A DNA stretch of 64,000 bases, taken from positions 1 through 64,000 of the forward strand of contig JAJDUA010000008.1 in assembly GCA_022826905.1 (NCBI GenBank), read 5' to 3'. Shown here piece by piece: positions 7,418-33,482 of this stretch. The notes below the pieces were generated by a model. The model was not told the origin of the DNA and made no database searches. It was given only the letters and a program-made list of their open reading frames with translations. The translations under genes and the position numbers were made by a program. Source of the DNA: Candidatus Dadabacteria bacterium (GTDB taxonomy: Bacteria > Desulfobacterota_D > UBA1144 > Nemesobacterales > Nemesobacteraceae). The first letter of the stretch is position 1; each line of letters opens with the position of its first letter.

Positions 7418-7435
7418 TTTGGAGGGAATCATACC

Positions 7436-11581: not shown

Positions 11582-11621
11582 TATTCCCCCTGCGGTCTAT
11601 TCTTTCTTTTGATCAGTAGCC

Positions 11622-14306: not shown

Positions 14307-14323
14307 TATCTACGAAGTGAGAT

Positions 14324-15106
14324 ATGATCGGCGCCATTATAGGTGACATAGTGGGTTCCATCTACGAATGGGACAGGATAAAGACCAAGGAATTCGAGTT
14401 CTTCGGCGAGGGATGCCATATCACGGATGATTCCGTCTGCACAGCCGCGGTGGCGGATATTCTGCTGCATGACCTCCCCGCGGTCTCAACCATGCAGCAG
14501 TGGTGCCGCAAATACCTTGGCGCGGGCTACGGCGGATTGTTTGTGGAGTGGATTGTGATCGATAATCCCCAACCTTACAGAAGCTTCGGCAATGGTGCCG
14601 CGATGCGCGTTTCGCCTGCGGCGTTTCTTAACCGCAAAGCCGACCTGTCTCTGGCGCTCGCCGCAGCGGACAGGGTTACCACGATCACCCATGATCACGA
14701 TGAGGGAATAAAGGGCGCCCGGGCCACGGTCCATGCAATCTGGCTTGCTTACAGGGGCGAGGACGTGAACCGGATTCGCGAGATTATCTCTTCTGTCTAC
14801 GGCTATGACCTCTCAAGAAGCGTAGACGATATTCGCCCCGGCTATACATTTAACGAAACCTGCCAGCAAACGGTGCCCGAAGCGCTTACCTGCGCTCTGG
14901 AATCGGAGAGTTTTGAAGATGCGGTCAGAAACGCCGTTTCGCTTGGTGGTGATTCGGATACCCTTGCCGCAATTGCCGGTTCCATCGCGGAGGCGGTGCA
15001 CGGAATTCCTCGGAAAATCCGGGAATTTGCGGAGGAGACCTACCTTACTCACCACCCCGATATCCACGCCGTCATCATGGAGATGTACGGTACGCGCGAA
15101 GGCTGA
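14324..15106 (+). CDS. ADP-ribosylglycohydrolase family protein
   Basis: 260 residues with the DraG/ARH fold signatures: GDIVGSIYEW at the N-terminus, TDDS (metal-binding, about 36-39), GNGAAMRVSP, THDHDEGIKGA, and GGDSDTLAAIAGSIAEA near the C-terminus. These supply the Asp/Glu/Thr ligands for the two Mg2+ ions. The family removes ADP-ribose from proteins, nucleic acids or small molecules; the substrate here is unknown. No DraT or other ADP-ribosyltransferase is seen nearby. The gene is visibly more GC-rich than rpoC/valS, hinting at acquisition. It starts 17 bp after valS. Confidence 0.9.
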   Translation: MIGAIIGDIVGSIYEWDRIKTKEFEFFGEGCHITDDSVCTAAVADILLHDLPAVSTMQQWCRKYLGAGYGGLFVEWIVIDNPQPYRSFGNGAAMRVSPAAFLNRKADLSLALAAADRVTTITHDHDEGIKGARATVHAIWLAYRGEDVNRIREIISSVYGYDLSRSVDDIRPGYTFNETCQQTVPEALTCALESESFEDAVRNAVSLGGDSDTLAAIAGSIAEAVHGIPRKIREFAEETYLTHHPDIHAVIMEMYGTREG

Positions 15107-15156
15107 AGGTAGGAGATAAAGATTTCAGTAATCCGGGGATTTAAGTACGTTCCGGC

Positions 15157-16569: not shown

Positions 16570-16571
16570 CT

Positions 16572-18806
16572 TTACCCTTCTTGGAGTGAAAGGCTTTTCT
16601 CAAAGCCCGTAGACCATGCGTCATGAACTGCCGAGATTTTCATGTCAATCAAATCTCCTATACAGAACCTGTCGTCATCAACGACTACCCCGGCACGCAG
16701 CACGGGGACGCCGTAATCGTTTGCCATCTCTTCTATCTTTCCCCAGTTTTTACCGCTTATGCTTGCTATTACCCTAGATTGCGTTTCGGAGAAAAGAAAC
16801 AGATCGTCTCTAAGAGAGTTTTCATTTATGCCGGGCGCTTCTGCCAGCACCCCCCTTGTGCCGTCTGAAGAGAAGCAACATTCCGCGAGCGCAACGGCAA
16901 ACCCGCCCTCGGATATATCATGCGCCGACTTAATTATACTTTGAGAAGCGCAGGCAATCAACATTTCGGCAAGTCTTTTTTCCTTGTCAAGATCTATTGA
17001 GGGTGCTTCCCCGCCGATTATACCATGTTCAGCTTTAAGATACTCGCTTCCTCCTATATCTTCTTCTATTACCCCTCCCAGCAGTATCACCAAGTCTCCG
17101 GGGTCACGGAACCAGGGAGTGAGCATCTTCTCCGTATCTTCTATGAGACCCACCATGGCCACAGTCGGGGTGGGGAATATGGCGACACCTTCGGTTTCAT
17201 TGTAGAGACTGACGTTGCCGCTTACAACGGGCGTATTAAACACCTCTGCGGCTTCCGACATGCCCTCAACGCTTTCTTTGAACTGCCACATTATCTCGGG
17301 ATTCTCAGGGTTTCCAAAATTAAGACAGTCAGTGATCGCGAGAGGAAAAGCCCCGCAGCAGGCAAGATTTCTCATGCTCTCCGCGACAGCTATTTTGCTT
17401 CCATTTCTGGGATTTAAATAGCAATATCTAGAATTCACATTAGATGTCATGGCAATTGCTTTGCGCGTTCCCTTGAGCCTTATTATTGCAGAGTCAGCCC
17501 CCGGTCCCAGAACACTGTCAGTTCTTACCATGTGATCGTACTGCTCGTACACCCATTTCTTGCTGGAGACAGTGGGAGAAGAAAGGATTTCAAGAAACAC
17601 TCTTTCGAGGTTTTCAGGTTCGGGAATATCCGCCGGACCCAGTCTCGTTATCTTTTCAAGATATGAGGGTTTCCTGACCGGTCTTGTGTAGATGGGAGCT
17701 TCTGAGGTTATAAGACTCACCGGCAGGTCCGCGACTGTGGCTTCGTCTTCAGTGACGGTCAGTTTTCCGGAGTCGGTCACCTCGCCGATAACCGAAAAAT
17801 CAAGGTTCCATTTGTTGAAAATATTCCGGGCCACGTCTTCTTTTCCTTTTTCGAGAACCACGAGCATTCTCTCCTGCGACTCTGAGAGCAGAACTTCATA
17901 GGGCGTCATATTCTCTTCCCGTCTCGGGACTTTTTCGATCTCAATTCGGAGACCTGTTCCCGCCCGGTCGGCCATCTCCGTTGAAGAAGAGGTAAGTCCC
18001 GCGGCTCCCATATCCTGTATCCCCACGACGCAGTCTGTCTCAAACAGCTCAAGGCAGGCTTCAAGGAGAAGTTTTTCCGTAAAGGGGTCTCCCACCTGCA
18101 CGGCAGGCCTTTTTTCTTCACTCCCCTCGGTAAATGTGTCAGAGGCCATGATGGCTCCCTGTATTCCGTCTCTTCCGGTTTTCGATCCGACGTATATTAC
18201 AGGGTTACCCTTTCCTGAGGCGTATCCGCGGAAGATATTATCTTTTTTTGTTACTCCGAGAGCGAAGGCGTTTACCAGAGGGTTTCCATTGTAGCAGTCA
18301 TCAAAGTATATCTCCCCTCCTATCGTAGGAATCCCCATGCAGTTTCCGTAACCCGCTATTCCCGATACAACTCCCTCAACTAGGAATCTGGTTTTCTGAA
18401 GACGGGGGTTTCCAAAACGCAGGGAATCAAGCAGCGCCACAGGTCTCGCGCCCATGGTGAATATGTCCCGGAGTATTCCCCCGACCCCTGTCGCGGCACC
18501 TTGGTAAGGCTCTATGAAGGAGGGATGGTTATGGCTTTCCATCTTGAAAACGACGCAGTCGCCATCCCCTATGTCAACCACCCCCGCGTTCTCCCCCGGT
18601 CCCTGTATTACCTGCTCTCCCGTAGTGGGAAATTTTCGAAGATGCACCCTGGAGCTTTTATAGGAGCAGTGTTCAGACCACATGGCTCCGAGAATTCCGA
18701 TTTCGGTTAAATTCGGCTCCCTTCCCAGGGCTTTGACTATTTTTTCGTATTCGTCTCCGGTCAGTCCGTGGTCCATGGCAGACTGTAGAGATGCCTTGTC
18801 TTTCAT
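16572..18806 (-). CDS. purL: Phosphoribosylformylglycinamidine synthase subunit PurL
   Basis: 744 residues, the size of the small PurL that needs separate PurS and PurQ (neither is in the window), not the ~1300-residue fused form. Motifs: [38 protein letters not shown], and [17 protein letters not shown] near the C-terminal ATP-binding half. It converts FGAR to FGAM. Its ATG overlaps the stop of the upstream acyl-CoA synthetase gene by 4 bp (ATGA type), indicating translational coupling. Confidence 0.96.
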
Positions 18807-20482
18807 TTGTCCTCCGGGGGATGGATGAACTTTGTTGTCCTGGGTATGTCCATACCTCTGAAAAGGTATCTTTTCACTTTTCTTGTGGTTGTTTTTGGCA
18901 GTTCTTCTCTGGCTACGGCGAAATGGCTGATTCTCTTATGCGGTTCGAGCCGGCGGTTTATCCCCGTTATCTCGGTTTTAAGGATGTCCCAGATTCTCTC
19001 GTCGTCCCCACTTCGCGGCGCCTGTCCAAGCTTCTTGGAAACCCTCTCCGCCTCAGGAAATATAACGGCCTGTATCCTTTCATCATCCGGGCTGAACACA
19101 ACAGCTTCTTCAACTATTTCAAGCGGGGTGAGTTTTTCCTCTATCTCCTCGGGAGAGATGTTCTTTCCTCCCTTGGTTACGATAACCGATTTTTTTCTTC
19201 CCGTTATGTAGAGATAGCCTTCCTGATCGAAATAACCGAGGTCGCCGGTTCTGAGCCAGCCGTCACGGGAGAGAATCTCGTTTGTGGCGTCGGGATTTTT
19301 ATAGTAGCCCCGCATTACGCTTGGACCCCTGGCGCATATCTCCCCGACCCCCTCTGAGTCTTGGTCTCTTATTTCGACCTCGGTGTTTTCAAGCACCATG
19401 CCGCCGCTCGCGTTTTTAGGTCTTGAGAAAGGGTTTGCGGATATGACGGCGGATGTCTCGCTCATTCCGTATCCCTGAATAAGGGGGAATCCGTATTTCT
19501 CAAGCCCCACGGAAGCCGCCGGGGAAAGGGCGGCCCCACCGCTTACTATGAGCCTCAGACGGTCAAGGCCGAGACGTTTTTTCGCAATCTTTCCGAAAAG
19601 TCCTGAGGGCAGGGCTCTTGTAAGGAAATTCTTCGCCTTGGCCTGCTCGACTCTTCCGAGCAGTCTCTCAAGTATCAAAGGGGTGTTAAGCCATACGGTG
19701 GGTCTTGCCACCTTGAGGTCTGAGAGCATTTCCCTGGGTTTTATGCCTCTTGAGAAAAACACTCTCTGCCCGCAGTAAAAAGACAGCAGTATTCCTCCTA
19801 TTCTTTCGTACACGTGGTGGATGGGCAGTATGGAAAAAGCGGTATCTCTGTCCGTTATCGGAAAGGCGCTGTAAAGAGTTTCAAGGTTCGACATTATGCT
19901 TGCGTGGGAAAGCATTACCCCCTTGGGATTGCCCGTGGTTCCGGAGGTGAACACTATGTCCGCTATGTCCCGGGGCTCCAATTTTTCCGCCGCCGCGGTT
20001 TTCTCCGTATCCATCGGGCCGGACAGGGCTTCCTCCATCGGTATTACATGCTTAATCGTTCCTGTGTCGCGAAGAACCCCGGCGAACTGCGCAGATGGAA
20101 TAAGGAATTCCGAATCAGAGAGCCCGAGTACCTGTTTGATGTGTTCAGTCCTCGCCCTCGCGTCAACGGGGACGGCTATGGCGCCCGCCCAGATTACGGC
20201 GAAGTAGGAAATAGCCCACTGGGGGCTGTTTTCCCCCACTATGGCCACGTGTTCTCCTTTTTTAAGGCCGAGAGCCCTCAGGCGGGCCGAGAAATTGGTG
20301 AAAAGGGTGAAAACTTCGCTGAAGGTAAGAGAACTTACGGACAGATCCTTTTTTCTTACGGAGTATGCGACCTTGTCTGCGTAAAGAGAAGACTTTTTCT
20401 CAAGCATCCGCTGTATCGTGGCTATCCGGTCTCCGCTTCTTATGGAGGGAAGTCTTTTTTCAGTGCGCGTGAGTCTTTTCAT
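18803..20482 (-). CDS. AMP-dependent long-chain acyl-CoA synthetase/ligase
   Basis: 559 residues of the ANL superfamily. The phosphate-binding motif is [16 protein letters not shown] (about 183-198). [35 protein letters not shown] and [12 protein letters not shown] are the later adenylation motifs. It probably activates a medium/long-chain fatty acid to acyl-CoA through an acyl-AMP intermediate; the exact substrate cannot be read from sequence. No clear signal peptide or membrane span. Overlaps purL by 4 bp and lies 15 bp after the HAD gene, so it belongs to the same operon. Confidence 0.9.
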
Positions 20483-20497
20483 GGAAACGGTGTTTTC

Positions 20498-21226
20498 CTA
20501 GAGTATATCCCTTAGTTCTCTCAGGTTTTTTATAGTGAATTTCGCCTCTGTTCCACCGGGTTGTTCTTTTCTATTTACCCACACGGAATCAATTCCGAAT
20601 TCTGAAGATCCTGTTATGTCAGCTTCGGGATTGTCCCCTATGAAGATGGCGTTCTGTGGGCTCTCAGCGAGTCCGGCGAGAGCAGATTCAAATATCTTCC
20701 TGTGAGGTTTTCTCCAGCCCACTTCTTCTGATATCACTATATCTTCAAAGAAATTCGCGATCCCGAACTTCCCGAGCAGTTCCCTCACCGTGGGAGCATG
20801 ATCGAAATTTGAGACCAGAGAAAGTCTGTATCCTTTTTTCTTAAGATAGGAAAGAACTTCCGTATGGTGTTCGGGATATACCACCGCTTTGCAGAGACTT
20901 TGCATGTGTGAGCGTACAAACCTGTCAGGCAAGTCTTCATCTCCCTTGATGCCTGTTTTCTCAAGAAATATCTCAAACCTTTTTCTGTTCGGATATTCTT
21001 TCAAATTTTTTTTCCTGAGATCAAGAAGTTCTGTGTAGCTTTCAACAAAAGGCGTGTAGAAGTCCGAAAATTCTATTCCTCCGAGACTTGATTGCATTTG
21101 CGTGAAGACGTGTTTTGCGGTTGAGTTGCGGATTTCTCCGTTAATAGTTACTTCAGGAAGAAGGGAAGGTTCGAACATGACAAGCGTGTCGAAAAGGTCA
21201 AAAAACACCGCTGAATATTTTTCCAT
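20498..21226 (-). CDS. HAD-superfamily hydrolase (haloacid dehalogenase-like, subfamily IA)
   Basis: 242 residues. HAD motif I is FFDLFDTLV (nucleophile and acid Asp, residues about 9-17), motif II is LVSNFDH, motif III Lys is in WRKPHRKIF, and motif IV is IFIGDNPEADITGS. The large helical cap after motif I marks subfamily I. Such enzymes dephosphorylate small phosphometabolites; the substrate is not identifiable. It sits 17 bp downstream of the CbiX-like gene within the six-gene minus-strand unit. Confidence 0.88.
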   Translation of the reverse strand: MEKYSAVFFDLFDTLVMFEPSLLPEVTINGEIRNSTAKHVFTQMQSSLGGIEFSDFYTPFVESYTELLDLRKKNLKEYPNRKRFEIFLEKTGIKGDEDLPDRFVRSHMQSLCKAVVYPEHHTEVLSYLKKKGYRLSLVSNFDHAPTVRELLGKFGIANFFEDIVISEEVGWRKPHRKIFESALAGLAESPQNAIFIGDNPEADITGSSEFGIDSVWVNRKEQPGGTEAKFTIKNLRELRDIL

Positions 21227-21609: not shown

Positions 21610-22758
21610 TCAGCTTCTTTCCGAATGGAGCTTTATTGTCTCAAAAACTATCTCCGCTGACCTGCGGAACTCATCGAGCAGAAGATACTCGTTTACAGTA
21701 TGAAGCTCGTACATTCCCGTTCCGAGGTTTACGCACTCGATTCCCTTTTCGTTTATGAAGTTAGCGTCGCATCCTCCGCCGCTTGTGTGGAGCTCTATGT
21801 CGTGGTCAAGGTTCGCCGCGGCTTCAAGCACGAGTTTAGTCACAATCGCCTCCGGGGAGACATTCATTACGGGATACACGCGTTCTATCTCGATCTCCGC
21901 GCGCGCGCCGAGCCGTTCCCCGTCAAGGAAAAGTTCCCTGCTTTTTGCCGCTTCCAGAAAGCACTCGCGCATGTGCTGTGTCTGCGCGTCAAGTTTCCCT
22001 TCATCGTGGCTTCGGGCCTCGGCCTTCACTTCGACGAGACCGGGAACTATGTTTATTGCAGATCCCCCCTTTACCTTTCCTATGTTTGCCGTTGTCTCGT
22101 GGTCTATCCTTCCGAGCTTCATTTTCGAGATCGCATCACTCAATATTTCCAGGGCACTTATCCCGTTTTCGGGGCAGAGTCCCGAATGCGCCTCGACGCC
22201 GTGTATTTTTACACCCATGATGTCGGAGCAGGGACACCTGAGCACAAGCCTCTCTGGTGTGCTGCTGTCAAGAACTATCCCGTAAGGGCTTTTAAAGCCT
22301 GAAGGGTCAAGGAACTTCGCCCCGAGAAGGCCGACTTCCTCGCAAATGGTAAACGCGACTTCTATGTCTCCGCAGGGAATATCGTTTTCCTTGAGCGCTC
22401 GAAGTACTTCAACTATGATGGATACGCCGCTTTTATCGTCGCTTCCCAGTATCGTCGTACCGTCGCTTCTCATCACGCCGTCTTCCACTCTCGGTTTTAT
22501 TCCCTCTCCAGGGCTTACGGTATCCATGTGAGAGCAGAGAAAAAAGGGCGGGACATCTTTCTTCGTTCCGGGAAGCTTGACTATCAGGTTGCCAATGTTT
22601 CCCTCGACCTTGTCTCCCGCATCGTCGTAGAAACAGTCAGCACCTAGGTCCTTCATTTCTTCCTCGAGCCTCAGGGCTACATCCTTTTCCTTTCTTGATG
22701 GACTATCTATCCGTATGATGTCCATCAGGTGACGGGTCATTCTTTCTTCTTGAATCAT
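21610..22758 (-). CDS. M20-family peptidase (PepT-like)
   Basis: 382 residues. Zinc-ligand motifs of M20 peptidases are seen: CSHMDTVSPG (His/Asp, about 76-85), GSDDKSGVS (about 105-113, bridging Asp), ICEEVGLLGAKF (Glu-Glu), and a late His in MYELHT. The central insert (about 170-290) matches the dimerisation domain. It resembles the tripeptidase PepT/YqjE group, so the likely role is cytosolic peptide hydrolysis. First gene of the minus-strand unit, which then runs through to purF. Confidence 0.9.
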   Translation of the reverse strand: MIQEERMTRHLMDIIRIDSPSRKEKDVALRLEEEMKDLGADCFYDDAGDKVEGNIGNLIVKLPGTKKDVPPFFLCSHMDTVSPGEGIKPRVEDGVMRSDGTTILGSDDKSGVSIIVEVLRALKENDIPCGDIEVAFTICEEVGLLGAKFLDPSGFKSPYGIVLDSSTPERLVLRCPCSDIMGVKIHGVEAHSGLCPENGISALEILSDAISKMKLGRIDHETTANIGKVKGGSAINIVPGLVEVKAEARSHDEGKLDAQTQHMRECFLEAAKSRELFLDGERLGARAEIEIERVYPVMNVSPEAIVTKLVLEAAANLDHDIELHTSGGGCDANFINEKGIECVNLGTGMYELHTVNEYLLLDEFRRSAEIVFETIKLHSERS

Positions 22759-22900
22759 GGGTGGTTTTCTCTTTCTAGTTGGATTAGATGGTTAAATCAT
22801 ATTTGAAAAACCCCGATATTAAAAGATTAGTTGTACGCTGTAAGAGATTTAGGACTGAGTATTAAGTAAAATATCCCGAAGTTCTTTTGAGGGGAATAGG

Positions 22901-25900
22901 ATGACTAAACGCCCAATTTCAAAGCGCAGGGTCAGCGGTTCATCGGACACTGGAACTGACGAAAGCGCAGGAATTCCTCAAAACGAAATCGGAGCTTTTT
23001 CGCACCCCTGTGTTTCACTTGACCTTGAAGTTGGGAAACATAACAACCGAATTCACGCCTTCGCAGCGGTGCGCCCAGATACCGGTCAATCTATTCTTTT
23101 CCGAGATGGAGATTTGCTGGCTGAACTGTCGAAATTGGATGACCTTGCGGACGAGGCATCTTTCCTCCTTGGTCACAATCTAATCGATTTTGACCTGCCT
23201 CGCCTAGCTGCCGCAAAACCCGATCTACGGTTGTTGAAACTTCCTTCGATCGATACGCTTTGGCTAAGTCCTCTGGCTTTTCCCCGCAATCCTTATCACA
23301 AGCTTGTAAAGCACTATCAGGATGCTGGACTGAAACGCGGACAAAGAAACAACCCTGAACTTGATGCCAAGATCACGGTTGAACTTTTCAGTAGCGAATG
23401 GGAGGCTCTGCGAAAAACTTCCCCGAACCTGCTTGCAGCGTGGCACTGGTTAACCACTGCGGGAGATAGGATGTCTGGTTTTGACATGTTTTTCTCTGAT
23501 CTCAGGCTCTCACGCCGTCCTTCGGATAAAGAAGCCCGTACGGCGATACGCAAGCAGTTAAAGGGTAAGGCCTGCCGTACCCACGCCCTTAATATCGTAA
23601 AAGACGTTCACCGCTTTGGCTGGGCGTTTGCTTACGCTTTGGCGTGGCTTTCTGTATCTGGGGGCAACTCCGTTATGCCACCTTGGGTCCGTCATCAATT
23701 TCCCAAGGCAGGTCATTTAGTTCACCAGTTGCGCGATACCGCATGTGCAGATTCTGCCTGTAATTGGTGCCGTGAAAGACATGATGCCCGCAAGGAACTT
23801 GCCCGCTGGTTTGGCTTTTCCGATTTCCGCCGGGAACCGCTCGATGCTGACGGTAGACCAATGCAACGATCAATAGTTGAGACGGTTATGGCGGGGGACC
23901 ATGTTCTTGGTATTATGCCCACTGGTGCGGGCAAGTCGCTTTGCTATCAGGTCCCGGCCCTCTCGCGCTACGATAAGACTGGTGCTTTGACAGTTGTAAT
24001 TTCCCCCTTGGTTGCTCTCATGGCTGATCAGGTAGCGGGACTTGCATCCAAGGGAATTATTTCGTGTGTGACCATAAACGGATTGCTGTCCATGCCCGAG
24101 CGGGCAGAGGCTCTGGACAAGGTAAGACTCGGGGATGCAAGCATGCTCATCATTTCTCCTGAACAGTTACGCAGCCGTTCCCTTCGGCGAGTACTTGATC
24201 AGCGAGAGATTGGTGCGTGGGTGCTAGATGAGGCTCATTGTCTCTCAAAGTGGGGGCATGATTTCAGGCCCGATTACCGTTATGTGGGACGTTTTATCCG
24301 CCAAAGGGCCAAAGGGGAGCCGATACCTCCCCTGCTTTGCCTTACCGCGACTGCGAAGCCCGATGTCATAGAGGAAATCACTCTTTATTTCCGAGAAGAG
24401 CTGGGAGTTGATCTCGCTGTCTTTAACGGAGGAGCCGATCGTCCCAACCTGACGTTCGAAGTCATACCGACGAATGAGGCGGAGAAATTCTCCCACATAT
24501 ACCAAGTTATTGAAAATGCCCTGCCGGCAGATATGCCAGGAGGCGTAATCGTGTACTGCGCGACGCGTAGACAAAGCGAAGAGGTGGCTGAGTTTCTTTC
24601 GAACAAGGGTCTTGAAGCGGGCCATTTTCATGCCGGACTGCCGCCGGAAACCAAGAAAAACGTACAGCAGAGTTTCATTGAAGGAGATTTACGCGTTATT
24701 GCTGCCACAAATGCGTTTGGCATGGGTATTGACAAGCCCGATGTGCGCCTTGTGGTTCATTCGGATATACCGAGTTCGCTTGAGAACTACTTGCAGGAAG
24801 CGGGTAGGGCAGGGAGGGATCAGAAACCTGCGCGTTGCGTTATGCTCTACGCTAAAGAAGATGTAGAGAGGCAGTTTGGAATGTCCGCGCGTTCGCGACT
24901 CACTCGCAGAGAGATTCACGGTATCCTGAGGGCCTTGCGCAGGCTGGATCTGAAGAAACGTCTGGATGGTGAAATTATAGCCACTGCCGGGGAAATACTG
25001 ATTGAGGATGAGGATAACGAGTTTGTTAGAGACTCTGCTACCGACGATACCCGGGTGCGGACCGCCATCTCCTGGCTTGAAGAAGCCGTACTGCTTTCCC
25101 GGGAAGAAAATCTGGTTAACGTGTTCCCCTCGTCCCTTCAGGTCGACTCGCTGAAGGAAGCTCTGGACAGGCTTGAAAAAAAATCTTTTGGGGATGCGAA
25201 TCGTCGTCAACTTATGTCAATTGTTGAGGCGATAATGGATGCGGACATGGATGAAGGCATTTCCACAGACCAACTCATGTACGTATCGGGTCTTAGTGCT
25301 GAGGGTGTTAGTGCCGCTCTTTATGACCTTGAGCAGCTAGGCATAGCTAGTAATGACGTCATACTGACCGCCTTTGTGCATTCAGGTGTGGAACACTCAT
25401 CGCTTAGACGCTTTAAGGAAACGCAGGATCTTGAGATCGCTCTGATTAGTTATATGCGAGAAATGGAACCGGATATTAAAAAAAGAGGGAAATTTACGCT
25501 GCTTTTACGGGCGGCGGCGCAAAAACTTCGGGAACAAGGAATGGTAAACTCCTTGCCGCAGCGGTTGCTGGGCCTGCTGCGCAGCATAGCTTACGACGGT
25601 CGGGGCGAAGGGGGCGACGCGGGAAGTCTGGGAGTGCGGAATCACGACGGGGACACTGTACGGGTGACGCTTCGGAGGGAATGGAATGCACTTGAGAAGA
25701 CTGCGGAGGTCAGACGTGCCGCGGCGAACCTCCTGCTTGGACACCTGCTGGGCTGTGTGCCGAAGGGGGTGCGTGGAACTGATATTATGGTGGATACAAC
25801 CCTTGGGAAACTGTTAGAAGCAATTACTTCTGATCTAGCCTTAAAGAGCGAAGTCAAGGATCCCGTCAGATTACAAAACCGTGCTTTGCTTTGGCTTCAC

Positions 25901-28090
25901 GAACAGGAAGTCATTCGTCTTAACAAGGGTCTTACGGTGTTCCGTATGGCCATGACTATCCGCTTGAAACAGGAGAGACGAGGATTTGCCAAGGTTGATT
26001 TCGAACCGCTTGCCCTGTACTACAGGGGACGGGTTCAGCAGATACATATAATGGCCGAGTTCGCGCGCAGGGGACTTGATTCCATTTCCGAGGCCCAGAA
26101 GCTGGTCTCTGACTACTTTAGCCTCAAGCAGGATGACTTCCTTAGCAACTGGCTGCCTGGACGCCAAAGGGAACTTGGCCGGGAAACCACGCCCGAGTCG
26201 TGGCGGGCAATAGTGGAGAGCTTGAACAGTCCCGCTCAGCAGCGGATCGTTGCGGATGACCGGGAACAGACAAACGTACTGGTGCTTGCCGGTCCCGGTT
26301 CCGGCAAAACACGGGTGCTGGTGCATCGCATCGCCTACCTGCTGCGCGTCAGGCGGGAGAACCCCCGCAGCATCATGGCCTTGGCTTATAACCGCCACGC
26401 GGCGGTCGACATCCGCCGCCGCCTGAGAGATCTTGTTGGTAACGATGCCTTGGGAGTGACGGTGCTTACGTGCCATGCTCTAGCTATGCGCCTGGTTGGC
26501 GCCAGCTTCGCCGAAGCGTCGGAGTCTCCGGACGACGCATTTTTTCGGGAAATGCTACGTCAGGCGATAGCTTTGCTCCATGGGGAAGGGGTACCGCCGG
26601 AACAATCGGATGAGCAGCGGGAACGGCTACTTGCCGGTTTTCGCTGGATACTGGTTGACGAATATCAGGATATCGGCGCGGACGAGTATGAATTGATATC
26701 GGCTTTGGCCGGGCGAACACTCGATGAGGAGGAAGGCAAGCTTACACTTTTCGCAGTAGGCGACGATGATCAGAATATCTACGCTTTTAACGGCGCTTCA
26801 GTGGAATTTATCCGTCGTTTTGAGAAAGATTACAAATCCCGCCCCGCTTTTCTGATCGAGAACTACCGCTCTACCCATCACATTATCTCGGTAGCAAACG
26901 CCGTGATCGAACCTGCGCGGGAACGTATGAAGGTTGATAAACCCATCCGTGTTAACCACGCGCGTTCAAGGGATCCGCGGGGAGGTGAATGGGAGAAACT
27001 GGATCCGGTAGCGCGGGGCAGAGTACAGATTCTACCCGCGGGTCGTGACACGGTCTCCCAGGCACTGACTGTGATGACAGAGTTTCAGCGTCTTCAAAGA
27101 CTTTCATCAGATTGGGACTGGTCGAAGTGTGCTGTAATAGCGCGAAAGTGGGAAGACTTAGTTCCGGTCCGTTCTTTCTGTGAGATTAACGGTATCCCTG
27201 TACAGATGGGAAATGAGGACATTCCGAGTTTTTGGCGTCTGCGAGAAACTCAAATTTTTGTCGAATGGTTGCGCAGACAGGAAACCGGTATTGTTGCTAA
27301 TACCGAGCTTGAAAGCTGGTTAGATACACAGACATCTGGCTACTGGAATGACCTTCTGCGACAAGCTGTCGAGGAATATTCTCTGGAAACCGGCGATGCG
27401 GAAACACCGATTGCTCGCTTGATTGAATGGCTTGCTGAATGGGGTCGGGAGATACGTCGTCGGCAGCGTGGACTGCTGCTGCTTAGTGCGCATGGTGCCA
27501 AAGGACTTGAGTTTGACCACGTGATTGTGCTTGACGGTGGTTGGAATCACACCATAAATAATAACAACGTGGATGAAGAGCGCAGGTTGTACTATGTAGC
27601 CATGACGCGCGCAAAAAAGACTTTGGCTCTTGCGCGTCTTGAGAAACCCAATCAGCTACAAGATGCGTTGCTTGGTAATTCCTCGATGATGCTCCGCGAG
27701 CCGACAGGGTTGCTAGATGAATCTGAGGAGCTTAGAACCCGCTTTAGTAGGCTTGGTCTTTGCGATGTGAACTTGGGTTTCGCTGGGTCTCGAGATGCAC
27801 GTAATCCGTTGCATCGCTCTATTTCTGCGCTGTCCCCCGGAGACTCGCTTCAAACGCGGATTGTAAATGAACGCTGGGAATTGCTGGACCAGTCGGGGAC
27901 GGTAGTGGGGCAGCTTGCCAAGAAATTTACACCTCCAGATGGAATGCGCTGTGATTCCGCAACCGTTTTTGCCATCGTAGTTTGGAGCCGGAACGATTCA
28001 GACCCTCAGTACCGGGATAGAATAATGTGCGATAAGTGGGAAGTAGTGGTGCCGGAGCTAGTGTTTGAATCTAAGCAAGTGGATTCCTAG
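22901..28090 (+). CDS. Exonuclease-like / RecQ helicase / UvrD-type helicase fusion protein
   Basis: 1729 residues in one uninterrupted frame. (1) Residues about 35-170: DnaQ-like 3'-5' exonuclease fold with DLE (Asp41, Glu43), GHNLIDFD (Asp96/98), Asp118 and Asp155. (2) About 282-294: Cys282, Cys287, Cys290 and His294, a possible zinc site. (3) About 315-660: RecQ-type SF2 helicase with TGAGKS (Lys345), DEAH (443-446), LTATA (481-485) and QEAGRAGRD. The usual RecQ zinc-binding cysteines are missing afterwards. (4) About 1115-1620: SF1A helicase with AGPGSGKT (Lys1136), DEYQD (1253-1257), GDDDQNIY (1287-1294), HGAKGLEFD (1531) and YVAMTR. GAGGGG precedes the ATG. It stands alone between oppositely oriented housekeeping units. 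Probable roles are DNA repair or defence against foreign DNA; this is inference. Confidence 0.9.
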   Translation: MTKRPISKRRVSGSSDTGTDESAGIPQNEIGAFSHPCVSLDLEVGKHNNRIHAFAAVRPDTGQSILFRDGDLLAELSKLDDLADEASFLLGHNLIDFDLPRLAAAKPDLRLLKLPSIDTLWLSPLAFPRNPYHKLVKHYQDAGLKRGQRNNPELDAKITVELFSSEWEALRKTSPNLLAAWHWLTTAGDRMSGFDMFFSDLRLSRRPSDKEARTAIRKQLKGKACRTHALNIVKDVHRFGWAFAYALAWLSVSGGNSVMPPWVRHQFPKAGHLVHQLRDTACADSACNWCRERHDARKELARWFGFSDFRREPLDADGRPMQRSIVETVMAGDHVLGIMPTGAGKSLCYQVPALSRYDKTGALTVVISPLVALMADQVAGLASKGIISCVTINGLLSMPERAEALDKVRLGDASMLIISPEQLRSRSLRRVLDQREIGAWVLDEAHCLSKWGHDFRPDYRYVGRFIRQRAKGEPIPPLLCLTATAKPDVIEEITLYFREELGVDLAVFNGGADRPNLTFEVIPTNEAEKFSHIYQVIENALPADMPGGVIVYCATRRQSEEVAEFLSNKGLEAGHFHAGLPPETKKNVQQSFIEGDLRVIAATNAFGMGIDKPDVRLVVHSDIPSSLENYLQEAGRAGRDQKPARCVMLYAKEDVERQFGMSARSRLTRREIHGILRALRRLDLKKRLDGEIIATAGEILIEDEDNEFVRDSATDDTRVRTAISWLEEAVLLSREENLVNVFPSSLQVDSLKEALDRLEKKSFGDANRRQLMSIVEAIMDADMDEGISTDQLMYVSGLSAEGVSAALYDLEQLGIASNDVILTAFVHSGVEHSSLRRFKETQDLEIALISYMREMEPDIKKRGKFTLLLRAAAQKLREQGMVNSLPQRLLGLLRSIAYDGRGEGGDAGSLGVRNHDGDTVRVTLRREWNALEKTAEVRRAAANLLLGHLLGCVPKGVRGTDIMVDTTLGKLLEAITSDLALKSEVKDPVRLQNRALLWLHEQEVIRLNKGLTVFRMAMTIRLKQERRGFAKVDFEPLALYYRGRVQQIHIMAEFARRGLDSISEAQKLVSDYFSLKQDDFLSNWLPGRQRELGRETTPESWRAIVESLNSPAQQRIVADDREQTNVLVLAGPGSGKTRVLVHRIAYLLRVRRENPRSIMALAYNRHAAVDIRRRLRDLVGNDALGVTVLTCHALAMRLVGASFAEASESPDDAFFREMLRQAIALLHGEGVPPEQSDEQRERLLAGFRWILVDEYQDIGADEYELISALAGRTLDEEEGKLTLFAVGDDDQNIYAFNGASVEFIRRFEKDYKSRPAFLIENYRSTHHIISVANAVIEPARERMKVDKPIRVNHARSRDPRGGEWEKLDPVARGRVQILPAGRDTVSQALTVMTEFQRLQRLSSDWDWSKCAVIARKWEDLVPVRSFCEINGIPVQMGNEDIPSFWRLRETQIFVEWLRRQETGIVANTELESWLDTQTSGYWNDLLRQAVEEYSLETGDAETPIARLIEWLAEWGREIRRRQRGLLLLSAHGAKGLEFDHVIVLDGGWNHTINNNNVDEERRLYYVAMTRAKKTLALARLEKPNQLQDALLGNSSMMLREPTGLLDESEELRTRFSRLGLCDVNLGFAGSRDARNPLHRSISALSPGDSLQTRIVNERWELLDQSGTVVGQLAKKFTPPDGMRCDSATVFAIVVWSRNDSDPQYRDRIMCDKWEVVVPELVFESKQVDS

Positions 28091-28225
28091 TTAGCTTGCA
28101 TTCTTAACAAAAACCCATATAAGAACCTAATACCAATTAATTCTTTTTGTTTTACCGGGCATTGGTAGTGTAGAATTACTTCTCTATTAAAATATCAATA
28201 CTTTGGCCGTGTTTCTAAATCTAGA

Positions 28226-29710
28226 TTGAGTGGAGAAGAAATGGAATTTTTTCTTGTAAGAGATGATGTTACAAATATTGAGTCGGATTCAGTTGTTTTT
28301 CTATGCCATGAAGGGCAGAGGCTTCCCGCCGCTGCCAAGAAAATTGACGGTAAGCTCGGAGGTTTTCTTTCAGACAAGGTGAAGTCATCCGACTTCAAGG
28401 GCGCCTTCGGTAAAACGGTTCTTGTTGATACACCTGGAGACTTTAATACAAAAACGGTCGTTCTCCTCGGCCTCGGGAAAAAAGAGAATTTCGGTTCGCT
28501 TGAGGCTTTTCGCGCCGCAAACATCGCGGTTGCGAGAACCGGCCAGCGCTCCCGCACGGTTTCGGTCGATTTTTCCAACATGGACAGGGGCTTTCTTAAA
28601 GTTTTTCTTGAGGGCATGGCCTGCGGTACATATGAATACGGAAAGCTCAAGTCCTCGGGGAAAAAGAGGAACCGCATAGAGAAGATATGTGTAGCCTCAA
28701 GAAGAATCTCGGCCGATTATTTCAGCACGAAAGCCGCGCAGGCAAGCGCCATTTCAAAGAGCGTGGCTTTCTCAAGAGACCTTGTGAATGATCCTCCTAA
28801 TATGCTTACGCCCTCAATCCTCGCGGAGCATGCGCTTTCGATTTCCGAAGGGTCAGAACACCTCAGTTGCAAGATTCTCGGCAAGGAAGAGATAAGGGAA
28901 ATGGGAATGGGAGGACTCTCTGCGGTTTCTTTTGGAAGCAGCGAGCCCCCGAGGTTCATCCATCTTTCCTATTCACCTCCGGTAAAATCCCGCAAAAAGG
29001 TCGCTATTGTCGGCAAGGGTATAACTTTTGATTCGGGGGGACTCTGCCTTAAGCCAGCGGACAGCATGAGAACGATGAAGATGGACATGTCCGGTGCCGC
29101 GGTCGTACTCGGCACCATGAAGGCGCTTGGGGAACTGACTCCCAGCATTAACGTTCACGGTATTGTCCCGGCCACTGAAAACATGACCGGAGCCTCGGCC
29201 TACAAGCCTGACGACGTGGTGACAGCTCTTAACGGCAAGACCATAGAAATCATAAACACCGACGCGGAGGGCAGGGTGGCGCTTTCCGATGCGCTTAGTT
29301 ACGCGGTCCGCCTAGGGGTTTCCGAGATAGTGGATCTCGCAACGCTTACCGGCGCCTGTATAGTCGGGCTCGGACTTCACAACGCCGGGGTTATGGGCAA
29401 TAACGCGAATCTTGTGAAGTTGGTTCTTAACTCCTCGCGCGATGTCGGCGAGAAGATGTGGGAACTTCCCCTTGACGCGGAGTTAAGAGAGGAAATAAGA
29501 AGCCGCGTGGCTGACGTTAAAAATGTCGGAAGCAGGTGGGGTGGGGCGATAACCGCGGCGCTTTTCCTCGAGAATTTCGTTTCGGATGTTCCGTGGGTTC
29601 ACATCGATATAGCCGGTCCCTCATACGTGGAGAAATCTTCTGACTGGTATCAGTACGGGGCGAGCGGGTTCGGAGTGAGAACCATAGTCAACTACCTTAT
29701 GAAAAGATAG
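28226..29710 (+). CDS. pepA: Leucyl aminopeptidase (M17)
   Basis: 494 residues, the normal size. The C-terminal catalytic domain has VGKGITFDSGG (Lys and Asp ligands), MKMDMSGAAVV and the family signature NTDAEGRVALSDAL, which give the two-metal site. The N-terminal domain (about 1-170) is the more variable macro-like part. It removes N-terminal residues from peptides and forms cytosolic hexamers; some homologues also bind DNA. The ATG at 28241 is an alternative start, as ATGGAATTTTTTC follows GGAGAAG closely. The longer frame start at 28226 has a weaker site. Confidence 0.94.
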   Translation: MSGEEMEFFLVRDDVTNIESDSVVFLCHEGQRLPAAAKKIDGKLGGFLSDKVKSSDFKGAFGKTVLVDTPGDFNTKTVVLLGLGKKENFGSLEAFRAANIAVARTGQRSRTVSVDFSNMDRGFLKVFLEGMACGTYEYGKLKSSGKKRNRIEKICVASRRISADYFSTKAAQASAISKSVAFSRDLVNDPPNMLTPSILAEHALSISEGSEHLSCKILGKEEIREMGMGGLSAVSFGSSEPPRFIHLSYSPPVKSRKKVAIVGKGITFDSGGLCLKPADSMRTMKMDMSGAAVVLGTMKALGELTPSINVHGIVPATENMTGASAYKPDDVVTALNGKTIEIINTDAEGRVALSDALSYAVRLGVSEIVDLATLTGACIVGLGLHNAGVMGNNANLVKLVLNSSRDVGEKMWELPLDAELREEIRSRVADVKNVGSRWGGAITAALFLENFVSDVPWVHIDIAGPSYVEKSSDWYQYGASGFGVRTIVNYLMKR

Positions 29711-29867
29711 GTTCTTCGCCGGTTACTGGTTTCCGGAAGAAAAAGACGATTCGGGTAACGCAATCAAGCCAGCACCTGGATTTTGTCTCCTGTTTTTGAG
29801 TTTGTGTACCCAGCGATTTTTTATGTTAGCCTATACCCCCCAATCCTGAATATACTGGAGAAGACCC

Positions 29868-30488
29868 ATGTTGACCCTTTACGACGACCCGATTTCCAGC
29901 AATGGCTATAAGGTCCGGCTGATCCTTCTGCTCACCGGCAAGCCTTTTCGAGTAGTCAATCTGGACATCTTGAATGGCGAGACCCGAACCCCTGAATTTC
30001 TGGCAATCAACCCGAATGGAAAGATCCCGACCTTGGTATTTGAAGATGGTCGCGTGCTCTCGGAATCAAACGCAATCCTGTTCCATTGCGCAGAGGGAAC
30101 CGACTATCTGCCGTCCGAGCCCTTCAAGCGAGCTCAGGTTCTTCAGTGGTTATTCTGGGAACAGTACAGCCATGAGCCAAATATCGCCACTTCACGTTTT
30201 CTGCGCCAGCATCGTGAGCTGACGGAGGACGTGCTGGCTATGCTGGAAGCCAAGAAGGCTCCCGGTGAAGCCGCGCTGGCACTTATGGAAAGGCATCTGA
30301 CTTCCCATATCTTTCTGGTTGCCGAGAGTTTCTCAATCGCCGATATTGCGCTCTATGCATACACTCATGTGGCTGAGGAAGGTGGGTTTGCTTTAGACGG
30401 ATATTCTGCAATCCGGGCTTGGATCAAGCGCGTTGAGAATGTTCCCGGATTCATATCCATGAGCGAGGCAAGCGGGGGAGCGGTTTAG
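29868..30488 (+). CDS. Glutathione S-transferase family protein
   Basis: 206 residues. The N-terminal thioredoxin-like domain has DDPISSNGYKVRLIL with the catalytic-site Ser/Asn region, the cis-Pro segment GKIPTLVFEDG and the glutathione-binding ESNAI. The helical C-terminal domain contains FSIADIALYAYTH. GGAGA precedes the ATG. It probably conjugates glutathione to electrophiles or acts as a thiol reductase. Its stop overlaps the ilvE stop tail to tail by 3-4 bp. Codon use looks GC-richer than neighbours, so transfer is possible. Confidence 0.9.
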   Translation: MLTLYDDPISSNGYKVRLILLLTGKPFRVVNLDILNGETRTPEFLAINPNGKIPTLVFEDGRVLSESNAILFHCAEGTDYLPSEPFKRAQVLQWLFWEQYSHEPNIATSRFLRQHRELTEDVLAMLEAKKAPGEAALALMERHLTSHIFLVAESFSIADIALYAYTHVAEEGGFALDGYSAIRAWIKRVENVPGFISMSEASGGAV

Positions 30489-31405
30489 GGGATGTAATCA
30501 AGCCAGTCTCTGAACTTCTCATCCTCTCCTTTTATTACGGCGAAATACCTTTTCTGGAGAGTTTTCGTTATTTCTCCGGGCTTTCCTGAACCTATTTCCT
30601 TGCCGTCAACTTCCTTGATAGGGGTCACTTCAGCTGCGGTACCGGTGAAGAAGGCCTCATCCGCGATGTAAAGCTCATCTCTTGTGAAACGCTGTTCTTT
30701 TACAGCAATACCTTCGTCGTCGGCGAGATCCAGAACGCACTTTCTGGTTATCCCTTCCAGTATGGAAGTCAGAGGGGGAGTCTTGAGAGCTCCGTTTCTT
30801 ACGATGAAAATATTCTCACCGCTTCCTTCGGCCACGTAACCTTCCGAGTCAAGCAGTATTGCCTCATCAAAGCCGAGGTCGGCTGCCTCCTGCCTGGCCA
30901 TTACCGAATTTACGTAATTTCCGCATATCTTGGCCTTAGTCATAAAGGAGTTGACGTGCATCCTCGTATAGGATGATATCTTTACCCTGATTCCCTTGGC
31001 AATCGCTTCATCGCCCAGATACGTCCCCCACGGCCACACGGCTATCGCCACGTTTACGGCGTTATCTCCCGGAAGTATTCCTTTCTTTCCCGGTCCGATA
31101 AAAGCTATGGGCCTGATGTAGGCTTCTTCAAGTTCGTTCTCGCCCAGAAGATCCGTCACCGCGCCGCAAAGGGTCTGCAAGTCATATGGAATTTCTATGC
31201 CGGCCACATGCGCCGAGGTATAAAGCCTTTCCATGTGTTCTGTGAGCTTTAAGACGGCTGATTTTCCGTTGGAGCACTTATAGGCCCTTATGCCTTCAAA
31301 AACGCCTAGGCCGTAGTGCAGGGTGTGGGTGAGTACGTGTACGTTCGCCTCATCCCAAGGCACTGTTTCTCCGTTAAACCATATTTTGGATTGGTCGTCT
31401 GACAT
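30485..31405 (-). CDS. ilvE: Branched-chain amino acid aminotransferase
   Basis: 306 residues of fold-type IV PLP enzymes. Visible are VHVLTHTLHYGLGVFEG near residue 23, the PLP lysine in SFMTKAKICGNY, DEAILLDSEGYVAEGSGENIF, and FFTGTAAEVTPI. It catalyses the last step of Leu, Ile and Val synthesis with glutamate as donor. A consensus-like promoter (31445-31473) lies 40 bp upstream. An insertion sequence has landed just beyond it. It converges on and slightly overlaps the GST gene. Confidence 0.95.
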   Translation of the reverse strand: MSDDQSKIWFNGETVPWDEANVHVLTHTLHYGLGVFEGIRAYKCSNGKSAVLKLTEHMERLYTSAHVAGIEIPYDLQTLCGAVTDLLGENELEEAYIRPIAFIGPGKKGILPGDNAVNVAIAVWPWGTYLGDEAIAKGIRVKISSYTRMHVNSFMTKAKICGNYVNSVMARQEAADLGFDEAILLDSEGYVAEGSGENIFIVRNGALKTPPLTSILEGITRKCVLDLADDEGIAVKEQRFTRDELYIADEAFFTGTAAEVTPIKEVDGKEIGSGKPGEITKTLQKRYFAVIKGEDEKFRDWLDYIP

Positions 31406-31700: not shown

Positions 31701-33482
31701 CTAACCCGGTGAGAACAGGGCTTCAAAAGCCGCTTCCCTGTTCAGCGCGAAGTGTCTGGTGGCCTCGGCAGCGCTTTTGAACTTGTTGTGGAAAATAACC
31801 GCCAGCGCTATGTTGGCGCACGCGGCGTTGTTGGCGGGAGCGCCGCCCACGCGAGAGAGACATCTGTCTTCTCCGAAGGTTGTGTCGCGTATGAGGTGAT
31901 TTCTGGTCTCCACTGACCAGTGTCCCCTGTTCCAGGCAAGCAGTTGTTCGGGAGTGCCCCTGCGCTTGTCAACCGACGTAATCCCGAAAGCGTATTCAAC
32001 AGTCTCTTTACGTGTCTTCATATCCTTGCGCCATCGCCTCACCCGAAACACCTGTTTCACGCAAGGGTAATTGATCATTCTCCTGTAGGCGTCCATAACC
32101 TCTATGGAACGCCGCTCCATACGCCCATGCTCCTTGTTCAGCGCCTCGGCGAAACGTCTCTCGGCGTCCCGCTCCCAGTTCACCGAACTCAGCACCTCGT
32201 AAGTGCGCGGACTGTTGCCCTTAACCGTGAACAGGTAGTCCGCGCCATGGGTCTCCACGATGGAGCGGGCGGTGTTTCTCGTGGTATGCAGGGCGTCAAG
32301 CGTTATGATCCTCCCCTCTATGGAGACTTCTTCGAGCAAAGCCGCGACCGCTGCTCTCTCCCCGCCTTCTTCCCTGAAGTTAAGACTCCCCAGAGGCGCC
32401 CCGCTCCCATGTTCCACCAGAGTTACAACCTCATAATGCTCATCCCCGTTTCTGTTGGCCCCCCGTATCCGTTTGCCGTCCGCTGCCACAGCCTCCCCGA
32501 AACGTACCCGCGCGGAGGAATAACGCGCGAGCGTTTCCTCAAGCTCCCTGGGGTCCAGGCGGCTTATTACCCTGTGCATAGTGGCCCTTGAAACTGCGTC
32601 GTAGCGGCCCGTCTTCCTGTTGTACCATCCCCCAAGAGCCTTAAGCTCATTCTGGGAGAGACTCTTTGCGTACTGCGCCGCCGCGTCACCACCCCTCATC
32701 CCCGAGAGAAACGAGAGAATGTATATAGCCACAACGCACGCCACGCTGTGCTTTCTGCCCTGGGCCCTGCGGAAATCCTCCACCTCCCCCAATTCATCGT
32801 AAAGCGAACGCAGCGCCTCGTCCGATCTGCGGGTGCCCGCCCTCTTCGCTCTCCACCGCTCTCCCAAAGCGTTGCCGCGGCGAAGCATCCCGCGGGCCCC
32901 TCGCCTCAGAGGATATACGTACAGCTCCTTCCTGTTCCCATGGGGCTTCCTGTAAGCTCCGTTTGACCGGGGATATCCCCTGCTTAAACCCACGTACTTC
33001 CAGTTAGACGCCTTGTACATAGCTCCCGAAAAATGCCTGGGGTCCACGAAACTCTCCGCCAGAAGCAGACCGTGCCCGTAACGCTCCTCCCAGTCCCCGC
33101 TCAGCCGCTTCGTCATGGACCCCATGAAGTACGAGGCCAGGTTGGGAAACTCTCCCGCCTCGCCCAGAACCAGAAACCGGGTGTTGTTGCCTATGAGATG
33201 AAGATTGCGGAACTGACACTCCGGCTTCCACCCCACCCAGCGGTCCCGCGGAGCGCACTTGAAAGCTCCCGCCTGCCATCCGGCGATCGCTATCCATCGC
33301 CCCTCGTACTCCGCCACGTACCGAAGACCCCGACCCGCAAACTGCTTGAACCCAAGATAGTGATTCTCGTTCATAAGTTCGTTCCATCTGGGAACTTCGT
33401 CACAACGCGCAACTCTCACGGCAACGTCCTTGAGAACGAACTTCGGAGTTGGAACCGATAATGACCCCTTGCTCATAAACAC
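31701..33482 (-). CDS. ISAs1-type DDE transposase with N-terminal DruA-like (DUF4338) domain
   Basis: 593 residues from a GTG at 33482; the ATG at 33476 is an equally good start. Residues about 15-195 resemble DUF4338, the domain of Druantia protein DruA: WNELMNENHYLGFKQFAGRG, GRWIAIAGW, RFLVLGEAG, ESFVDPRHFSGAMYKASNW. Residues about 222-590 are an ISAs1/H-repeat transposase: DFRRAQGRKHSV, then a DDE triad of Asp335 (VAADGKRIRG), Asp396 (ITLDALHT) and Glu525 (GHWSVETRNH). Standard ISAs1 transposases (about 370 residues) lack the N-terminal part. It moves the element at 31493-33580. No druB-E genes are nearby, so this is not a Druantia system. Confidence 0.88.
   Translation of the reverse strand: MFMSKGSLSVPTPKFVLKDVAVRVARCDEVPRWNELMNENHYLGFKQFAGRGLRYVAEYEGRWIAIAGWQAGAFKCAPRDRWVGWKPECQFRNLHLIGNNTRFLVLGEAGEFPNLASYFMGSMTKRLSGDWEERYGHGLLLAESFVDPRHFSGAMYKASNWKYVGLSRGYPRSNGAYRKPHGNRKELYVYPLRRGARGMLRRGNALGERWRAKRAGTRRSDEALRSLYDELGEVEDFRRAQGRKHSVACVVAIYILSFLSGMRGGDAAAQYAKSLSQNELKALGGWYNRKTGRYDAVSRATMHRVISRLDPRELEETLARYSSARVRFGEAVAADGKRIRGANRNGDEHYEVVTLVEHGSGAPLGSLNFREEGGERAAVAALLEEVSIEGRIITLDALHTTRNTARSIVETHGADYLFTVKGNSPRTYEVLSSVNWERDAERRFAEALNKEHGRMERRSIEVMDAYRRMINYPCVKQVFRVRRWRKDMKTRKETVEYAFGITSVDKRRGTPEQLLAWNRGHWSVETRNHLIRDTTFGEDRCLSRVGGAPANNAACANIALAVIFHNKFKSAAEATRHFALNREAAFEALFSPG

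Follow-up and report, generated by a model that had tools for sequence, protein, structure and literature searches.

A single-gene insertion in Candidatus Dadabacteria encodes ERU, a member of a large family joining a DnaQ-fold exonuclease domain to RecQ- and UvrD-type helicase motors

RecQ and UvrD motors move along single strands in the 3'-to-5' direction, DEDD exonucleases shorten 3' ends, and RecBCD and AddAB act on DNA ends with a nuclease and helicase motors that lie in separate subunits, the nuclease being of a different fold. Among single-chain enzymes, WRN has an exonuclease followed by a RecQ core, and DinG of S. aureus and Bacillus subtilis has an N-terminal DnaQ-fold exonuclease fused to a superfamily 2 (SF2) helicase, a chain that one report describes as degrading linear single-stranded DNA 3'->5' (PMC12525004). 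Here we describe a gene, ERU (exonuclease-RecQ-UvrD), in a stretch of 64,000 nucleotides from a Candidatus Dadabacteria bacterium (GCA_022826905.1, contig JAJDUA010000008.1, positions 1 to 64,000; the window), whose product adds a superfamily 1A (SF1A) motor to an exonuclease and a RecQ-type motor. Among the open-access papers listed by title and abstract we found no description of an enzyme with these three parts, in keeping with an earlier reading made from the letters alone (the sequence-only reading), which knew of no characterised parallel; a description elsewhere is possible. ERU is a real and unusual protein, yet one member of a large helicase-nuclease family, and is best read as a self-contained, horizontally acquired accessory helicase-exonuclease that would act on DNA ends or branches.

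The ERU gene is one intact ATG-started frame of 1729 amino acids at 22901-28090 on the forward strand, exactly the coordinates and length first read, with its modules in the following order:

22901..28090, + strand: ERU gene, a single open reading frame (ORF) of 1729 amino acids, aligned with 83 other full-length homologues
23009..23425, + strand: DnaQ-fold DEDD exonuclease domain, residues 37-175 (profile, model and fold matches, conserved residues)
23426..23794, + strand: helical extension, residues 176-298 (model, 84-row conservation)
23795..24874, + strand: RecQ-type SF2 helicase core, residues 299-658 (Pfam, NCBIfam, solved-structure search)
24875..26209, + strand: linker of ~445 residues, 659-1103, with winged-helix-like units and a long helix (predicted model, VIA matches)
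26210..27670, + strand: UvrD/Rep-type SF1A helicase, residues 1104-1590 (Pfam, NCBIfam, solved-structure search, conserved residues)
27671..28087, + strand: C-terminal domain, residues 1591-1729, of no family (profile searches; same end on a Sphaerotilus UvrD homologue)

The three modules named in the sequence-only reading all stand, and the linker and C-terminal domain are added to its list. To place them in a family, an alignment of the exonuclease domain was compared with 84,980 species genomes, which gave at least 596 stretches, at least 552 of them relatives, and the best 80 of these were kept for further checks. A full single ORF is present in 67 of the 80 (66 over 1550 amino acids, plus L051, the G008 copy), which rules out an assembly or frame-fusion artefact; of the remaining 13, L087, L120 and L125 are interrupted, L074 has two frames on a short contig and the others stop at or near a contig end. 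Conservation is given below over 84 rows, comprising the window protein, 66 genome loci, nine plasmid, four viral-contig and four genus copies, loci with an ORF below 1550 amino acids being excluded from this alignment and its tree.

Pfam, NCBIfam and solved-structure searches agree on the two motors. In the first, Pfam placed DEAD at residues 319-492 and Helicase_C at 537-640, the best NCBIfam family was RecQ (TIGR01389, E 3.5e-104, residues 299-658) and the solved-structure search found RecQ 4tmu (E 2e-67), which makes this a RecQ-type SF2 core, with a TIGR01389 score of 349 bits that lies below the equivalog cut-off of 640 and a match that ends at profile position 336 of 591. In the second, Pfam found UvrD-helicase from residue 1112 and UvrD_C at 1525-1578, and the solved-structure search found UvrD 3lfu (E 2.1e-37); UvrD, PcrA and Rep were the best NCBIfam families, the top score of 178.6 bits falling below the equivalog cut-off of 965, and SF1A motifs are present in both halves of this part. 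The Walker A and B motifs read as intact from the letters proved invariant across the family: the RecQ Walker A K345, DEAH D443/E444 and motif VI R636/R639, and the UvrD residues K1136, D1253, E1254, Q1256 and R1570, are kept in 84 of 84 rows. After the RecQ core, neither the canonical RecQ zinc-binding/RQC winged helix nor HRDC gave a Pfam match at E 0.1, and their place is occupied by the linker.

The N-terminal exonuclease domain was missed by Pfam and supported by other profiles, a predicted model and fold matches. Pfam gave no match to it in the window protein and, among 14 relatives, a single one reaching DNA_pol_B_exo1 (E 0.064), while PHROG 403 (DNA polymerase exonuclease subunit) matched at E 1.8e-05. 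A profile of the 14 relatives matched DEDD exonucleases of the PDB weakly (best E 0.0031; the best entries are named exodeoxyribonuclease III, and the same entries are titled TREX1 homolog Plex9.1 in the Foldseek listing), and a profile of 65 of the 84 rows, the set used for structure alignments after nine plasmid rows and some near-duplicates were left out, placed DinG first (E 0.0045). An AlphaFold2 model of the domain (predicted local distance difference test, pLDDT, 88.4; predicted template modelling score, pTM, 0.86) matched chains bearing DnaQ-fold exonucleases in Foldseek (best E 6.5e-04), and a second look with VIA gave S. aureus DinG as best match (Z 14.5, 230 residues, root-mean-square deviation 4.8), rows within 1 of this Z, such as a DnaQ domain at 14.1, counting as tied. 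WRN was absent from the 50 best VIA rows, which does not by itself exclude an unlisted family. All 84 homologues keep the metal-binding acids D41, E43, D98 and D155, and these, with the fold, place the domain in the DEDD (DnaQ-like) class. It falls in neither usual subclass: the DEDDh His position (150, five residues ahead of the last Asp) is N in 82 rows and S in two, and the DEDDy Tyr position (151, four residues ahead) is D in 75 and N in nine, the window protein having N150/N151. In the extension that follows, C282, C287 and C290 are kept in 82, 82 and 83 of the 84 rows and may form a metal site.

For the linker, profile searches returned no convincing match and its model (residues 655-1103; pLDDT 80.9, pTM 0.53) no Foldseek match at E<=0.001. 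VIA gave Z of 6.2-8.3 over several different stretches, many rows being winged-helix proteins, although by the tool's own caution values of this size may reflect merely a common arrangement; the model suggests that the linker likely contains winged helices. Residues 1591-1729 belong to no family by Pfam or a profile search of solved structures, and a HIRAN-like domain seen there by eye was supported by neither. The same C-terminal end occurs on a stand-alone UvrD homologue of 684 amino acids on a Sphaerotilus plasmid (33.6% over residues 1104-1724).

ERU stands alone between two housekeeping genes, as the sequence-only reading had it, and comparison with relatives of the same genus delimits what was inserted between them:

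22829..28139, no strand: inserted unit of ~5.3 kb with ERU as sole gene (both flanks aligned to empty sites of genus relatives)
21610..22758, - strand: PepT-like M20 peptidase, left flank of the insertion site (Pfam, NCBIfam, flank comparison)
28226..29710, + strand: M17 leucyl aminopeptidase (LAP), right flank of the insertion site (Pfam, NCBIfam, genus comparison)

The triplet ATT at 22826-22828 recurs at 28140-28142 and is present in single copy in the empty site, and the left and right flanks in G000 match empty sites as far as this shared ATT, so that the inserted unit is ~5.3 kb and holds a single gene. LAP is present in all 13 genus genomes; one, G009, is unscorable at the site because its contig lacks the PepT gene. 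In the 12 others ERU is intact in three (G000, G007, G008), broken in one (G011, with frames of 601 and 1115 amino acids and a TAA within the match) and absent from the site in eight, which have a clean ~150 bp spacer (G001, G002, G003, G005, G006, G010, G012) or, in G004, a ~350 bp spacer without ERU. In G004 a copy lies at another place, on a contig of 6.3 kb whose start falls inside the gene, and a second ERU subfamily, ~40% identical, lies at another site in L049 (G011:C25) and L050 (G012:C81). Carriers and non-carriers interleave at the flanks, as judged from LAP, in which carrier G008 is 98% and 97% identical to empty G012 and G010, and carrier G000 96% to empty G003 and G005. For G008 the PurL gene agrees (97% to G010), whereas the PurL of G000 is just 82-88% identical to that of every other genome compared, so that its closeness to G003 and G005 is local. 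Along the window, the PepT-like gene, LAP and ilvE (21610-31405) are 96-99% identical to G003 and G005, against 72-90% for purF, purL, AMP-ligase and HAD (15157-21226), a pattern such as recombinational exchange of a block would leave. A conserved mobile-element end was sought and rejected, no 12-mer within 250 bp of the gene being common to more than six of the 84 loci, those six being from Caldilineaceae. A consensus promoter and terminator scan gave no informative signal, with one promoter-like site against a shuffled mean of 4.3, and eight terminator-like sites against 5.9.

Across phyla, ERU is more alike than RpoB and PurL are. Of 20 carrier genomes of other phyla, drawn from the 80 closest hits, which biases ERU identity upward, 18 have a copy that matches at 60-68% identity along 1549 residues or more, the other two (G069, G077) having interrupted copies; in the same genomes RpoB, with a query verified as RpoB, is 50-59% identical over its longest aligned piece (43-68% over all pieces) and PurL 34-58% in the 13 with a match. 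Within the genus the order reverses (ERU 84%, PurL 87%, LAP 91-92%), and since ERU is there the less conserved protein, it is transfer and not slow evolution that explains the similarity between phyla. In a FastTree tree of the 84 rows, the three Dadabacteria rows lie inside a 34-row set (SH-like support 99) that includes Latescibacterota, Nitrospirota, Acidobacteriota, Pseudomonadota and others. The claim that ERU was acquired is thus borne out by its insertion as a single gene, its patchiness in the genus and a cross-phylum identity above that of RpoB and PurL. Nor is the family near-universal in its lineage at one locus, which would have spoken against an accessory gene: in the window's phylum a member is found in 6 of 57 genomes, all in one genus (6 of 13).

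Every ERU module is under purifying selection. In three pairs, the ratio of nonsynonymous to synonymous divergence (dN/dS) was 0.06-0.19 in the exonuclease, extension, RecQ, linker and UvrD parts and 0.18-0.42 in the C-terminal domain, with LAP at 0.05-0.07, single values being rough as dS reaches 1.6 in some stretches. Between G007 and G008, dS was 0.41 for ERU, lowest in the linker, UvrD part and C-terminus (0.27-0.34), against 0.92 for LAP, so parts of ERU also recombine within the genus.

That the architecture is exceptional, as first supposed, was not upheld: the relatives extend over many phyla and plasmids, the best 80 of at least 552 covering 14 phyla by NCBI label, and more distant members are 25-52% identical to the window protein. 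The family is widespread and apparently unstudied, its plasmid copies being annotated mostly as 'RecQ family ATP-dependent DNA helicase'. Matches were found in 870 of 72,556 plasmid records, 23 of which reach at least 80% coverage of the protein at a single locus (one interrupted), and in 117 of 50,697 phage records, none covering 80%. Among 2.9 million viral contigs there are five ERU loci, including L134, a 6.5-kb phage-like contig with portal and terminase genes, the nearer 1.5 kb from ERU, and L131, with a minor-tail-protein match ~4 kb away. ERU occurs in 15 of 46 genomes of the order to which one Caldilineaceae carrier belongs, at 63-66% identity to the window protein in 11 and at 42% in four. 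Sponge symbionts appear to be a visible share of the carriers: 15 of the 80 titles (14 bins) bear RHO, COS or CAR bin names, which we take to denote the sponges Rhopaloeides, Coscinoderma and Carteriospongia, hosts named in a study of sponge metagenome-assembled genomes that also describes CRISPR and restriction systems as enriched in sponge symbionts (PMC8163846).

The RecQ-UvrD part also occurs behind other N-termini. A 1774-amino-acid plasmid protein of Rhodobacter sp. CZR27 has RecQ and UvrD parts (33% and 28% identical) behind a different N-terminus, and on a Hymenobacter plasmid the RecQ core is split over two genes with a 17-base overlap, possibly a frameshifted gene, the first having a 1210-residue foreign N-terminus; neither N-terminus belongs to a recognised family. 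These two N-terminal modules, of ~1210 and ~270 residues, are those of loci L156 and L157. Several copies are disrupted or accompanied by fragments. In L160 (Nostoc ATCC 53789 plasmid, 4962-16595) an IS1634 transposase gene lies inside the ERU copy and a viperin-family gene ~4 kb downstream, in L087 (7974-16276) ~3.7 kb interrupts the match between residues 617 and 704, and in L068 (14792-15745) and L127 (13827-14414) fragments of a second UvrD/C-terminal part follow downstream of a copy that is intact, which hints at turnover there.

We next consider the genes beside ERU. No partner gene recurs on nine plasmids or among 95 loci, where clustering of 1050 predicted proteins gave lineage-specific synteny or generic families as the largest groups, and the idea of a partner was dropped as no neighbour family recurs across lineages. 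On individual plasmids, ERU lies ~4 kb from a type I-D CRISPR locus (Thiothrix), near type I restriction genes (Allochromatium), near toxin-antitoxin genes (Cereibacter, Sulfitobacter) or HipA (Rhizobium) and, in L012 (Nostoc C052 plasmid, 17125-19968), ~100 bp upstream of a same-strand helicase with a MrfA zinc-binding domain. Defence families were then counted beside 36 loci, drawn at random from the 40 of 79 with two usable genes per side, with genes called by ORF length only and proteins of at least 1100 amino acids excluded. At E<=1e-10 there were 76 PADLOC families among 142 neighbour proteins against 119 among 141 controls (one control protein dropped) from stretches picked at random in 20 carrier genomes, of which 14 also belong to the 36 loci; families, not proteins, were counted. 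The matches listed include type IIG restriction enzymes, AbiEi/AbiEii, PifA and SoFic for neighbours, and Cas3, Cas5 and DndC for controls. By Pfam, the 25 most frequent of 124 neighbour families include sulfatases, epimerases, tRNA modification, GatB and ATP synthase, with two AbiEii and two NurA. In the window itself, nine neighbouring proteins are by Pfam peptidases, purine and other metabolic proteins and a transposase, and PADLOC matched none of the three flanking proteins. At 31701-33482 on the - strand, 3.6 kb from ERU, lies a 593-amino-acid protein in which a DruA (Druantia) domain is joined to DDE transposase domains.

What ERU might do can be drawn from its parts. The protein would bind at a 3' tail or at a branch such as a fork, D-loop or other recombination or replication intermediate. 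Its two motors of like polarity could then open it, either by moving in tandem along one strand or by each taking a different arm of the branch; placed on the two strands of a single duplex, they would move away from each other. The winged helices would grip duplex DNA while the exonuclease degraded the 3' strand that is exposed. As to purpose, we tentatively favour a role outside core repair, in which invading or competing DNA would be destroyed or taken apart to protect the host or the element that carries ERU, and place such anti-mobile-element defence slightly ahead of repair. The reasons are that one gene suffices, that it has crossed phyla and travels with plasmids and phage-like contigs, and that a single site has the gene in some genomes and lacks it in others, with some copies broken.

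Several observations weigh against defence. The usual general base (His or Tyr) of the exonuclease is missing family-wide, and the choice of carriers biases the ERU identities compared above upward, though the RpoB and PurL figures come from those genomes too. Phylum labels change 14 times on the 84-row tree against a minimum of 12 (nine for Pseudomonadota alone), and Chloroflexota, Latescibacterota, Nitrospirota and some smaller groups need one change each; so few changes imply that most copies stayed in their own phylum after entry and that transfer was not frequent among these rows, which makes the defence reading slightly less likely. The sequences thus indicate that ERU has moved between phyla and then mostly stayed within them. 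Its position is conserved in Caldilineaceae and in Nitrospirota, which is what a repair gene passed on stably could also show, so that a fixed chromosomal position is found in some lineages outside Dadabacteria. The commonest neighbour families are metabolic or housekeeping, and known defence families show no visible (strong) excess beside ERU over the controls. The likeness to defence genes that the sequence-only reading had proposed holds for a stand-alone, acquired gene, and the idea of a defence-island gene gained no support, PADLOC families being in no visible excess over random stretches.

The alternative that survives best, and one we regard as quite possible, is that ERU is an accessory repair or recombination enzyme, an optional extra that, like WRN or DinG, would clear stalled forks, D-loops and toxic recombination intermediates. 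Repair enzymes are where RecQ, UvrD and DinG-type exonuclease modules are at home, and the conserved places, the housekeeping neighbours and phylum labels that largely follow the tree would all suit such a role. Moreover, a RecQ above the family cut-off is found in none of the 13 genus genomes (best outside ERU 52.7 bits against 640) compared with 7 of 14 control genomes, so that ERU could supply one; 7 of the 13, however, have no visible family member and no canonical RecQ either, 17 of the 20 carriers of other phyla already have a separate RecQ-type frame, which led us to reject ERU as a RecQ replacement, and cross-phylum transfer and plasmid or phage carriage are unusual for core repair. 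Rather unlikely, though compatible with the other readings, is that the N-terminal domain is no nuclease and serves as a metal-dependent 3'-end sensor gating both motors: the replaced His and Tyr positions would fit this, but four invariant metal-binding acids are more what one would expect from a catalyst than from a sensor. Finally, that ERU serves its carrier plasmids and phages (in replication restart, strand processing during transfer or disabling of host nucleases), chromosomal copies being leftovers, seems improbable despite the 23 plasmid records, the Aliarcobacter plasmid, where ERU has par genes on one side and a type IV secretion coupling gene on the other, and the phage genes of L134, since no replication or transfer neighbour is conserved over nine plasmids, at least 11 of the best 80 genome loci are on records titled chromosome, 67 of the 80 have full frames, purifying selection acts on the genus copies, and no phage record has a copy covering 80%.

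If it works as drawn, ERU would be a one-gene helicase-nuclease joining SF2 and SF1A motors to an exonuclease, and a large family under a bland automatic name would become assignable through a single gene. A function would bear on whether mobile one-gene helicase-nucleases in dense symbiont communities, such as those of sponges, act in immunity or repair. A wider proposal, which we consider doubtful, is that RecQ-(winged helices)-UvrD may be a new class of single-chain twin-motor machine, a chassis that takes different N-terminal modules and a one-gene immune cassette spreading among sponge symbionts and many phyla.

How, then, does ERU compare with known systems? Unlike RecBCD and AddAB, it has everything in one chain, with SF1 and SF2 motors. 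Its residues 1104-1590 share SF1A motifs with UvrD, PcrA, Rep and GajB of Gabija, from which it differs as part of a larger chain that scores far under the UvrD/PcrA/Rep cut-offs; the Gabija partner GajA was found neither by Pfam among nine neighbours nor by PADLOC among three. Likewise, no other dpd genes were seen among the nine Pfam-scanned neighbours, PADLOC was blank for three, and the matches to DpdF of Dpd defence lie in the RecQ part. With bacterial RecQ it shares the full helicase core (residues 299-658), and differs in its truncated profile match below the equivalog cut-off and in coexisting with a separate RecQ-type frame in 17 of 20 carriers. Polyvalent proteins of conjugative elements resemble ERU in bearing many enzymatic domains in one mobile-element-borne chain, and one of 12,242 amino acids has UvrD beside SWI2/SNF2 helicases; as presented in the account we cite, these proteins bring together activities that are unrelated, and their injection is predicted; RecQ joined to UvrD was not seen among the combinations there (PMC5512222). 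The parallel with WRN drawn in the sequence-only reading stands for an exonuclease and a RecQ core in one chain, the core aligning to WRN at E 1.3e-51, and fails for the RQC and HRDC domains and the DEDDy Tyr; the best fold and 65-row profile matches of the exonuclease are to DinG, and the extra UvrD motor and a bacterial, mobile gene set ERU further apart. From DinG, with which it shares the order of exonuclease and SF2 helicase, ERU differs in a RecQ-type instead of an XPD-like SF2 part, an added SF1A motor and a replaced Exo III His; DinG is a useful guide to how ERU would work.

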